Positions 34,446 through 60,692 of a DNA stretch of 64,000 nucleotides are shown one piece after another. Position numbers and translations under genes: made by a program. Position 1 is the stretch's first letter. Every line of letters starts with the position of its first letter. This DNA comes from Dyella amyloliquefaciens. Its GTDB lineage: Bacteria > Pseudomonadota > Gammaproteobacteria > Xanthomonadales > Rhodanobacteraceae. Location: the NCBI RefSeq assembly GCF_004296575.1, contig NZ_SAYT01000001.1, positions 962,856 through 1,026,855 of the forward strand, written 5' to 3'. The notes under the pieces were generated by a model, which was given only the letters and a program-made list of their open reading frames with translations, did not search any database and was not told where the DNA came from.

Positions 34446-34710
34446 GGGCCTGTCAACACTATTCGCGTAGTTCGCGTGGTTCGTCCGTGGCCGTGCAGTG
34501 GTAGTGCGTGGCGCTGACCTGGCTGGCTGCCAGGTCAAGCCGCGCGGTGCCGCTGGGCGGCCACGGACGAACCACCCTTCGGGCAGGGTCTGTTTGCCCA
34601 CCATGACGCGTCATCGCTCAGTCGTGTTCGGACGTACACTCCCTCGCTCTTCCTCGCCTGCCGGGCAAACAGCTCCCGGCGGGAGCCACGCGAATAGTGT
34701 CAACAGGCCC
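34446..34710 (+). repeat. 265-bp structured dispersed element, copy A
   Basis: Outer inverted arms of 23 bases (34446-34468 with 34688-34710, 21 of 23 pairing) enclose a 17-bp perfect stem (34477-34493 with 34558-34574) with an inner hairpin (34515-34522 with 34530-34537), and a 10-bp stem (34590-34599 with 34663-34672) with a small inner hairpin. The core around CTGTTTGCCC is shared with copy B at 60427-60692, but the outer and second stems differ in sequence while staying paired. It fills the gap between two convergent genes and contains no credible gene. Confidence 0.85.
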
Positions 34711-34717
34711 TGGTTCC

Positions 34718-35872
34718 TCAGCCCAGCCAGCGCCACGCGAGATACACGAGTGGCGCACATACCAGCAGGAACGGCACCGAAACCTGGTGAAGCAGCCGAC
34801 CACCGCCGGGCTGCTTCGCCAGGCGCAAGGCGATGAGGTTGGCCAGCGAGCCGATGGCCAGCCCGAAGCCACCTACGTTCACCGCCACCGCCAGGGCCAT
34901 CGTGTCGGGCGCGTGGCGCAGGAACAGCACGGTGGCGGGCACATTGCTGATCATCTGCGAGGCCACGATGCCGCTGACGTACAGCGTGAGCGGCTGATCC
35001 AGATCCAGGCTGTCGAGTGCGTGTTGCACGAATGGCAGTTCGGAAGCGTGCCCAAGCCCCAGGAAAATGGCGGCGAAGGTGGCCAGCAGCAGCCAGTCGA
35101 CGCGCGCCAGCGTGCCGCGCTCCAGCAGCGCGAACGGCACCAGCAGGAGCAGTGCACCGAGCACGGCGTGGTTGTGCTCCATCATCAGCACCATGCTTGC
35201 CAGTGCGGTTACGGACAACGCGGCTTGCGCTACCGAGATGGGGTGACCGTCGATATCCTCCGCGTGCAGCATCACGCGATCGCGTGGCAACCACCACCAG
35301 GTCAGCAGCACCAGCAGGGCGAACATGACGCCGAACGCCGGCAGCATCGCCAACACGAACTGCAGGAAAGGCAAGTGCGTGTACTGCCACACCAACAGGT
35401 TTTGCGGATTGCCGATCGGGCTGAGCGTGGAGCCCGCGTTCACGGCCAGTGCTTCGAGTACCACCATCCGCATCACCGGCATGTTGGAGATGCGGCCGAT
35501 CGCCACCGTCAGCGGCACGATCAGGAACAGGCTCACGTCGTTGGTGAGCACCATGGCGAGCACGGCCGTCGTGCTTACCAGCAGCAGGCCCAGCATGCGC
35601 AACGAATGCGCGCGCGCCACCATCGCGGCCGCCACATGCTGAACCAGCCCGCTGTCGCGGATGCCCTGGATGCAGATGAGCAGGCCCAGCAAGCCTGCGA
35701 GCGTCGGCAGCTGCAGCCAGCGCTGCTGATCGGAAAGCGGCCGTGGATCGACCACAGTCAGGACGATCGTCAGCAACAGGAATCCGAGGAGCAGCCAATC
35801 CTGTCTGATGCGCTTGAGCACCCGCGTAAGCGGGCCTTCTACGTGACTGGCATCGTCGTTTGCAATGCCCAC
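34718..35872 (-). CDS. SLC13/ArsB-type (ion transporter superfamily) permease
   Basis: Inner-membrane transporter of 384 residues with about ten hydrophobic helices. Superfamily motifs are LTNDVSLFLIVPLTVAIG (TNDVSLF about 109-115), GSTLSPIGNPQNLLVW (GNPQN about 151-155) and, in the second half, SQMISNVPATVLF (SNVPA about 317-321). These mark the ArsB/NhaD/SLC13 fold, which moves anions such as dicarboxylates or arsenite, or Na+/H+. The substrate cannot be told from sequence. The GTG start abuts the stop of the upstream ABC permease (TGAGTG), so it is the third gene of a ybbA-ybbP unit. Copy A of the structured repeat follows its stop. Confidence 0.8.
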   Translation of the reverse strand: MGIANDDASHVEGPLTRVLKRIRQDWLLLGFLLLTIVLTVVDPRPLSDQQRWLQLPTLAGLLGLLICIQGIRDSGLVQHVAAAMVARAHSLRMLGLLLVSTTAVLAMVLTNDVSLFLIVPLTVAIGRISNMPVMRMVVLEALAVNAGSTLSPIGNPQNLLVWQYTHLPFLQFVLAMLPAFGVMFALLVLLTWWWLPRDRVMLHAEDIDGHPISVAQAALSVTALASMVLMMEHNHAVLGALLLLVPFALLERGTLARVDWLLLATFAAIFLGLGHASELPFVQHALDSLDLDQPLTLYVSGIVASQMISNVPATVLFLRHAPDTMALAVAVNVGGFGLAIGSLANLIALRLAKQPGGGRLLHQVSVPFLLVCAPLVYLAWRWLG

Positions 35873-59520: not shown

Positions 59521-60315
59521 GTGCGCGCCTATCTGGACCTGTTGCAGCACGTGCTCGACCACGGGACCGAAAAGGCTGACCGCACCGGTACCGGTACGCG
59601 CAGCGTGTTCGGCTGGCAGATGCGTTTCGACCTGTCCGAAGGCTTCCCGCTGGTCACCACCAAGAAGCTGCATCTGAAATCGATCATCCACGAGCTGATC
59701 TGGTTCCTGCACGGCGATACGAACATCGCTTACCTCAAGGAACACGGGGTCAGCATCTGGGACGAATGGGCGGACGAGCAGGGCAATCTTGGCCCGGTGT
59801 ACGGCCAGCAATGGCGCGCCTGGCCAACCGCCGACGGTGGGGTGGTGGACCAGATCCGCTGGGTGGTCGACGAAATCAAGCGCAACCCGGATTCCCGGCG
59901 ATTGCTCGTAAGCGCATGGAACGTCGGCGAACTGCCGAAAATGGCGCTGATGCCCTGCCATGCGCTGTTCCAGTTCTACGTGGCGGACGGCAAGTTGAGC
60001 TGCCAGCTCTACCAGCGCTCGGGCGATATTTTCCTGGGCGTGCCGTTCAACATCGCCAGCTATGCGCTGCTGACCCACATGATTGCCCAGGTCTGCGGGC
60101 TGGGTGTGGGGGACTTCGTGCACACGCTGGGCGACGCCCACCTGTACAACAACCACATCGAGCAGGCGCGCCTGCAGCTGTCGCGCGAGCCGCGCCCGCT
60201 GCCGAAGCTGCAGCTGAACCCGGAAGTACGTTCGGTGTTCGATTTCCGCTTCGAGGACGTCGCGATCGTGGGCTACGAGCCACACGGCGCGATCAAGGCG
60301 CCGGTGGCGGTGTAA
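59521..60315 (+). CDS. thyA: Thymidylate synthase
   Basis: Methylates dUMP to dTMP with methylene-tetrahydrofolate. 264 residues, identical in length to E. coli. DRTGTGTRSVFGWQMRFDL at the N-terminus (core DRTGTGTRSVFG about 20-31), catalytic Cys in LMPCHALFQFYV (about 146), and the C-terminus IKAPVAV. GTG start. Co-transcribed with lgt. The dihydrofolate it produces is recycled by folA downstream, beyond the 266-bp element. Confidence 0.97.
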   Translation: MRAYLDLLQHVLDHGTEKADRTGTGTRSVFGWQMRFDLSEGFPLVTTKKLHLKSIIHELIWFLHGDTNIAYLKEHGVSIWDEWADEQGNLGPVYGQQWRAWPTADGGVVDQIRWVVDEIKRNPDSRRLLVSAWNVGELPKMALMPCHALFQFYVADGKLSCQLYQRSGDIFLGVPFNIASYALLTHMIAQVCGLGVGDFVHTLGDAHLYNNHIEQARLQLSREPRPLPKLQLNPEVRSVFDFRFEDVAIVGYEPHGAIKAPVAV

Positions 60316-60426
60316 CCGTCGGGCAAGTCGGCAGCGGGGCGTGAGTTGCGTGAGCGCATCCTGCTAAGATCGGCCGGCGCGGCGCCATCGGCCCGGCGAC
60401 GCGAGCCGTCCCCACTGTCGATGGGA

Positions 60427-60692
60427 GAGCCTGTTCAATGTCTCCACGTAGCTCGCGTTGGACACCGATAGCCCCCTGCGAGCGGTCCGTGACGCAGCGC
60501 CTGACTGGTGGTCAGGTCAAGTCGCGGGGTGCTCGCAGGGGGCTATCGGTGCCCAACCCGTCGGGCCGGGTCTGTTTGCCCGCCATCCTGCGTCATCACT
60601 CAGTCGTGTATCGACATACACTCCGTCGTTCTTCCTTGGCTTGCGCGCAAACAGATCCCGGCGCGGGCCACGTGGAGACATTGAACAGGCTC
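60427..60692 (+). repeat. 266-bp structured dispersed element, copy B
   Basis: Outer inverted arms of 23 bp pair perfectly (60427-60449 with 60670-60692). A second stem of 26 bp has one mismatch (60458-60483 with 60531-60556). An inner hairpin CTGAC/GTCAG lies at 60501-60515. A third stem, CTGTTTGC with GCAAACAG, encloses GTGTAT-CGAC-ATACAC (60606-60621). The plan is the same as copy A at 34446-34710, with different but complementary stems. It ends 11 bases before the folA start codon, so it would lie in the folA leader of a thyA-folA transcript. Confidence 0.88.

Follow-up and report, generated by a model that had tools for sequence, protein, structure and literature searches.

Introduction

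Short dispersed repeats of the ERIC/IRU, Correia, BOX and RUP types are non-coding and mostly intergenic, carry terminal inverted repeats with hairpin potential and are patchily distributed. Integron attC sites are recognised by their folded shape and show widely varied stem sequences, and elements of the IS200/IS605 type are single-stranded DNA elements characterised by strand-specific hairpin recognition and lack of target duplication. Repetitive extragenic palindromic sequences (REPs) are described as units of 20-40 bp with GTAG or CGTC tags, and some RAYT genes as flanked by long terminal inverted repeats (PMC3733652). Here we address an element of about 266 bp present in two copies, A and B, within a 64,000-nucleotide stretch of the Dyella amyloliquefaciens genome (contig NZ_SAYT01000001.1, positions 962,856 to 1,026,855), which is referred to below as the window and numbered from its first letter. 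We put at roughly 45% the probability that A and B represent a mobile element, dispersed, without coding content and non-autonomous, which spreads in genomes of the order and is acted on as folded DNA, and we read it as a small non-autonomous dispersed element, new in the kind of variant that it represents.

Two copies share a covarying Y-shaped fold

The initial annotation, made from the letters of the window alone, placed two copies with covarying stems at 34446-34710 (A) and 60427-60692 (B); both are present at those places, and the observation is not just confirmed, it was understated. The copies are partitioned as follows (all on the + strand; the evidence used is given in brackets).

34445..34711, +, copy A, whole element (family model at full length, Pfam neighbours, fold)
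34445..34476, +, copy A, outer stem, left arm (fold, alignment, arm pairing)
34477..34574, +, copy A, hairpin 1, stem variable and tip region conserved, here GACCTGGCTGGCTGCCAGGTCAAGCC (fold, alignment, inverted repeat)
34584..34679 (approximate bounds), +, copy A, hairpin 2, stem mostly conserved, apical loop large and conserved (fold, alignment, column conservation)
34680..34711, +, copy A, outer stem, right arm (fold, alignment, arm pairing)
60426..60692, +, copy B, whole element (family model, fold, Pfam neighbours)
60426..60457, +, copy B, outer stem, left arm (inverted repeat, fold, arm pairing)
60458..60556, +, copy B, hairpin 1 (inverted repeat, fold, alignment)
60566..60661, +, copy B, hairpin 2 (fold, alignment; inside the hairpin-2 model match G000:C1:1023412-1023520, window 60557-60665)
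60662..60692, +, copy B, outer stem, right arm (inverted repeat, fold, arm pairing)

As had been described, an outer stem closes two inner hairpins in each copy, and the same Y fold is common to the family. Over the 23-nt outer arms, 21 of 23 positions are paired in copy A (34446-34468 with 34688-34710) and all 23 in copy B (60427-60449 with 60670-60692); the 5′ arms of A and B differ at nine positions, seven of which are paired in both copies, and the second stem pairs at 17/17 positions in A and 25/26 in B (strings compared by eye). The DNA folding energy lies 11.0 (A) and 13.1 (B) standard deviations under dinucleotide shuffles, with 0 of 200 shuffles as good.

Copies were collected from related genomes and aligned structurally, and compensation was found family-wide. 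From 319 loci, 162 distinct full-length rows, named Dyella and Rhodanobacter among them, were kept by a filter allowing at most 10 gaps and at most 6 inserted bases against a model of 14 own-genome copies, partial and variant copies being excluded. The formal count employed 50 aligned rows, namely copy A and 49 taken from 79 mutually diverse rows. Their common fold is a Y in which an outer stem of about 30 bp closes two hairpins, and RNAalifold assigns to it 100 pairs, 76 of them with two-sided changes. Paired cells make up 97.0% of 4993 in the 50 copies versus 80.2% after shuffling, and pairing falls to 33-41% if the partner is slid by 1-3 columns, a comparison in which the counted structure has an advantage over its slid versions, as it came from the same alignment. 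Two-sided cells number 806 against 199 in shuffles, which leave the relatedness among copies in place, and none of 500 shuffles matches the real alignment on any of five measures. Neither independently diverging arms nor compensation limited to two copies, the outcomes which the initial annotation had named as fatal for its structural argument, occurred across the family, and on the alignment evidence the Y structure is about as secure as comparative data permit.

Sequence conservation is concentrated in approximately 8 bp at each end, in the foot and tip region of hairpin 1 and in most of hairpin 2, where columns conserved at 90% or more amount to 15/20 and 16/21 in the arms and 40/55 in the loop. 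In the outer stem the same level is reached in each arm by 11 of its 32 columns, and in the outer half of the hairpin-1 stem the major base averages a frequency of 0.70. Inward of about position 9 the terminal repeats differ freely among copies, although the two arms of any one copy match. Much of the element has changed in sequence with the Y fold kept, which suggests that the shape, more than the letters, has been preserved by evolution.

Size and distribution of the family

In the own genome (4.83 Mb, 17 contigs), copy B used as a BLAST query gives 24 matches, which resolve to 14 full-length copies (A and B included), L010 lacking hairpin 1, L024 consisting of an outer-stem-only hairpin, and self-matches between arms. 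Pattern search of the same genome adds one further solo hairpin, L362, its other match (L363) being the L024 site; L362 and L363 are outer-stem arms without anything between them, possibly remnants or the smallest mobile unit. With the same query, 28 of 61 genomes, the own one included, match at E<=0.001, and an exact loop pattern is found in at least 111 stretches of GTDB contigs, the 80 listed coming from Dyella, Rhodanobacter, a Rhodanobacteraceae and, in one case, Luteimonas gilva. A covariance model restricted to hairpin 2, built from 30 sequences and applied at E<=1e-5, matches 93 of 398 genomes of the order, encompassing 31 of 98 genera and four families: strongly in f1 and f2, weakly in f8 and f4, the last being represented by one match. 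Folding of 21 matches from twelve f2 and f8 genomes yielded, by eye, about 14 full Y structures with stems almost wholly different and about 7 in which hairpin 1 is shortened or missing.

Three of five matches in an f8 genome were retrieved and align over 269-270 bp. Since two of them are 97.8% identical over 269 bp between unlike flanks, they fix the element ends independently. The element is 265-270 bp long, has outer arms of about 30 bp and runs from AGAGCC to GGCTCT; nothing gene-like was recognised inside it, and it is judged to be non-coding. Open reading frames traverse it at many loci.

Mobility and target sites

The element is, or was, mobile, because filled and empty alleles exist at orthologous sites and near-identical copies lie at unlike places. 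The folA gene was obtained from 19 of 20 genus genomes, and its upstream site, with states judged by eye, is filled in two (own and G006, with identical boundaries) and empty in 17, including the genome with the nearest FolA (98%). The copy in G006 (L183) carries a shorter, different hairpin in place of hairpin 1 and agrees with copy B at 96% identity in the right half, that is, the hairpin was swapped in place. The copy-A site is filled in one of 20 genomes. Twelve further own loci were searched by joined flanks, and alignable empty alleles were found for eight. At L008 the element is present in own, G004, G019 and G002 and the site empty in G006 and G008; at L015 own, G006 and G008 carry it and G004 has an empty site.

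By eye, the element takes the place of about 2-5 target bases at folA, L003, L006, L007, L008 and L011, and at all six its right end reads ...CTC(T/C)A. L015 is ambiguous, a 3-bp repeat being one way to read it, whereas variation at L009 and L013 is too great for target reading. Exact flanking duplications of 2-9 bp do not exceed shuffling at 111 loci (10 versus 8.9 for 2 bp), in a test which a duplication overlapping the terminal base would escape. The flanks tend to read CT(A/T) before the element and AAG after it. Of 130 independent loci, 51 have a gene start no more than 40 nt from the right end and 33 from the left end; for gene ends at the same distance the numbers are 40 at the left end and 25 at the right, a bias that rests on open frames, chance ones included. 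At L013 in the own genome the element sits a few codons inside a gene, and an ATG in its right arm reads in frame with the remainder of this gene, the start of which may have moved into the element.

Copy A is located between a DUF4097/DUF2807 gene ending at 34435 and a convergent CitMHS-transporter gene ending at 34718 (Pfam assignments). In some relatives the same gap holds other, unlike inserts (L205, L210, L211 and L213), exemplified by the GTCATTCCCGC...GCGGGAATGAC palindrome in L205, as if the site attracted repeats. Copy B is preceded by thyA (stop at 60315) and followed by folA (ATG at 60704), in agreement with Pfam assignment of thymidylate synthase to the gene on its 5′ side and DHFR to that on its 3′ side; its structure ends, as first reported, 11 bases upstream of the folA ATG.

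What holds the stems in pairing

When a single transition strikes a G-C or A-T pair, either a G·T or an A·C mismatch results, of which G·T is far better tolerated in RNA. In the outer stem of the 162 copies G·T and A·C count 67 and 74. RNase P RNA of the order, taken where the commonest pair is Watson-Crick, gives 73:7 (28 of 30 retrieved loci were used, and the element outer stem was counted by the same procedure); one-sided changes between similar RNase P sequences give 472:11. The ratio stays level in copies lying sense (20:25) and antisense (19:21) to their neighbours, the directions of which were read from open frames. Symmetric mismatches of this kind imply that selection acting only on one RNA strand does not account for the pairing of the outer stem. 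Folded RNA, considered at the outset as one possible source of compensation, is therefore disfavoured as the only one for the outer stem; hairpin 1 does not speak against it. Hairpin 2 shows G·T:A·C of 22:12 at its base and 9:67 in the inner part, which leans opposite to hairpin 1 and in which unpaired cells reach two-fifths at some pairs. The transition/transversion ratio of double changes (52:38 in the outer stem and 37:56 in the outer half of hairpin 1, near the 1242:1147 of the flanks) was considered as a test of the G·U path and dropped as non-discriminating, because RNase P doubles (428:171) follow the unpaired ratio (1033:374).

At column pair 25/244 the 162 copies carry A·C (97), G·C (21), A·T (19), G·T (15) or other combinations (10). 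Under independence the first four would number about 87, 27, 25 and 8, so that pairing is if anything avoided, and the neighbouring pairs 24/245 and 26/243 covary. T·G pairs likewise persist at 58/106 (100/162 copies) and 65/99 (127/162). Persistence of A·C at 25/244 disfavours blind arm-to-arm copying, as copying would have erased the mismatch.

Changes in place were followed in 26 orthologous pairs, i.e., loci with both flanks alike. In 16 of them divergence is lower in the element than in the flanks; for the unpaired columns of the element this holds in 20. The ten pairs with the fewest element differences, a choice made by the element difference itself, contain 10 Watson-Crick doubles versus 0.86 in permutations (maximum 5 in 1000 runs), mostly as scattered single pairs, two adjoining other changed pairs. 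The whole set gives 232 doubles versus 36 permuted, some sites having probably been refilled or converted.

From the symmetric outer-stem mismatches, the kept mismatch and the compensation in place, we infer that folded DNA is the preferred candidate for the target of selection. According to the mechanism that we propose, the DNA, folded either into a cruciform or, when replication exposes it, as a single strand, would be the target of action for a protein supplied in trans, which would read the outer-stem shape together with hairpin-tip sequence, and which would also move or keep the element. Pairing of the outer stem would be held pair by pair through selection with its letters drifting, and the drift of much of the sequence would follow from its being read by shape; insertion would take the place of about 2-5 bp, in many cases immediately before a start codon.

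Several points weigh against the folded-DNA reading. No partner gene was found, RAYT being the only proposed partner tested by family. In hairpin 1 the G·T:A·C ratio is 271:49 (167:27 in its outer half), as expected of folded RNA or one folded strand, and the G·T excess falls on the top strand in both neighbour orientations; hairpin 1 may thus act as RNA or as one folded strand. The A·C at 25/244 corresponds to a G·T wobble on the opposite strand, and this pair changed in 14 of 26 orthologous comparisons. In 10 of the 26 pairs the element is more diverged than the flanks (e.g., 0.248 versus 0.137), which fits replacement or re-insertion and limits the in-place claim to ten pairs; in these, 57 one-sided changes stand against the 10 doubles, so that compensation has still to reach the greater part of the recent changes. 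A merely selfish element, resting copies of which are expected to decay, would also hardly be compensated at fixed sites, and formation of a cruciform by the element is a prediction.

The likeliest alternative, which we regard as possible but unlikely, is a structured RNA transcribed from its own or a neighbour promoter, as the 5′ leader of the next gene or a repeated small RNA, with compensation keeping the RNA fold. It would account for strong covariation of the stems, the conserved loops, the RNA-like top-strand bias of hairpin 1 whatever the neighbour direction, and the preference of gene starts for the right end and gene ends for the left. This preference, however, was drawn from open frames with chance ones among them, the outer stem departs from RNase P even in sense copies, copy A lies between convergent genes, no Rfam family reaches its threshold, and no sigma-70-like promoter or terminator was found around copy B in what is a weak test.

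Re-perfection by copying, in which template switching or hairpin-templated repair transfers one-arm mutations to the other arm without selection, appears improbable. It was offered in the initial annotation as the counterpart of selection for a fold, both explaining a compensation that has now been extended to the whole family; the symmetric outer-stem mismatches and double changes in place are what copying should leave. Yet A·C at 25/244 is retained in most copies without covariation towards pairing, one base away from covarying pairs, the two T·G pairs are likewise kept, and the loops are conserved, though copying would not conserve them, so this half of the proposal is disfavoured; selection for the kept mismatches could nevertheless act on top of copying.

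An ordinary miniature inverted-repeat transposable element (MITE), i.e., a remnant of an insertion sequence that arose by deletion and is mobilised through terminal inverted repeats by the transposase of that sequence, is still harder to accept, for although repeats of about 30 bp, the absence of any recognised gene, moderate copy number, two solo outer-stem hairpins and patchy presence all suit it, the repeats are free in sequence inward of about position 9 and nevertheless agree between the arms of any one copy, no exact flanking duplication rises above chance at the 111 loci, and the longer intervals bounded by similar termini in the retrieved loci lack matching arms.

Search for a mover, an origin and a known family

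The RAYT domain PF01797 occurs in 11 of 20 genus genomes. Four genomes with 13-19 element matches lack it (G002, G003, G009 and G011), and one without an element match carries it (G001). RAYT was thus rejected as the partner, since presence of the domain does not follow presence of copies, and a past RAYT may have served. Nor is the presence of the element tracked by the Y1 transposase domain. Clustering of 2815 open frames neighbouring the loop-pattern loci gave four largest clusters in which 120 of 131 frames overlap an element, followed by one of 7 loci with 28-35% identity, save one 97% link, and with ABC transporters in the 6 Pfam-scanned members; other clusters inspected look orthologous by shared locus names. 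A scan of the retrieved loci, rather than whole genomes, for an insertion sequence with the same ends returned 10 intervals (320-3500 bp) between terminus-like 10-mers, none with matching arms, the arms agreeing at 9-18 of 26 positions.

Phage, plasmid and viral-contig origin found no support in the records searched: copy B has no match among 72,556 plasmid and 50,697 phage records, and two exact loop patterns give 0 matches in viral contigs. No FolA relative was found in viral contigs, a result without bearing on the element. Rfam 15 gives 0 gathering matches in the window and, for copy B, four sub-threshold microRNA-precursor models only, in keeping with the lack of a named family for the fold noted at the outset. 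A literature search at the level of titles and abstract openings, with most subscription journals outside its scope, returned no description of the element.

Modular variants, a related family and other repeats

Hairpin 1 is shortened or swapped, with the outer stem and hairpin 2 kept, in L010, L080, L094, L128, L131 and at the G006 folA site. The window also contains a member of a related second family:

46989..47300, +, second-family element, 312 bp, same Y anatomy, 4 copies in the own genome
46989-47030 and 47259-47300, outer arms
47031-47128 and 47161-47258, hairpins

Its folding energy lies 24 standard deviations under shuffles, and a match of the family-1 model (E 5e-5) falls on the opposite strand at 47248-47105, the reverse strand of the second family resembling hairpin 1 and the start of hairpin 2 of family 1. 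Both hairpins of this element are tipped by GACTGGCCGTC, one in reverse. One second-family copy in the genome, L026, lies beside a paralogous gene pair at a position equivalent to that of the family-1 copy L003, and the flanks of the two match at 85% and 81%.

Two elements lie about 0.3-0.5 kb apart at L487 (G006:C4:856000-859000), flanking one gene, which we take to be ExbD/TolR-like, and at L484 (G326:C7:171000-174300), in opposite orientation. Short palindromic repeats with GTAGGAGCGCACCCAGTGCGCGA occur in the window at 359-404, 967-1018, 50826-50921 and 53024-53094 and are presumably GTAG-tagged REPs. Besides, positions 54-170 and 800-916 form a 117-nt inverted repeat, 78% complementary and 629 nt apart.

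Significance and comparison with known systems

To our knowledge, evidence for selection on folded DNA in bacterial chromosomes rests mostly on single palindromes. The element provides a natural experiment, with many scattered copies in which 76 of 100 base pairs have been swapped (50 copies) and the shape kept, and permits a direct test of such selection; comparison of G·T with A·C by strand separates RNA from DNA selection and is usable on other repeats. A shape-reading enzyme, if it exists, would be a new recombination or transposition activity. Taken jointly, the observations might describe a class of mobile elements with shape-recognised ends, for which pairing is needed on either strand and letters are mostly free, a sequence code in two interior hairpins, a few target bases swapped and none duplicated, and a host lineage keeping resting copies folded; this complete combination we consider doubtful. 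If true, it would mean a class that spread through a bacterial order and was missed until now because sequence searches see mainly loops.

Like REPs and REPINs, the element is palindromic, intergenic and non-autonomous; unlike REPs, it measures about 266 bp and has the ends AGAGCC...GGCTCT, and the occurrence of RAYT does not track that of its copies. It shares with attC sites widely varying stem sequences and a kept shape and differs from them in being scattered as single copies, no integron or core-box search having been made; hairpin 1 starts with GTTG and ends with CAAC by eye, an order opposite to that of the attC boxes. As in IS200/IS605 derivatives, no target duplication is seen, but the outer stem is strand-symmetric, target bases are replaced and the distribution of the Y1 transposase domain does not match that of the element. 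From MITEs it has the short size (265-270 bp), the terminal inverted repeats and, by judgement, the non-coding nature. With ERIC/IRU, Correia, BOX and RUP it shares shortness, absence of coding, mostly intergenic location, terminal inverted repeats, hairpin potential and patchiness; in distinction from all of them no target duplication was seen for it, and it has conserved interior hairpin tips and a fixed three-stem Y of about 100 pairs, the stem letters of which are largely free but compensated. In its behaviour it resembles a non-autonomous element read by shape.

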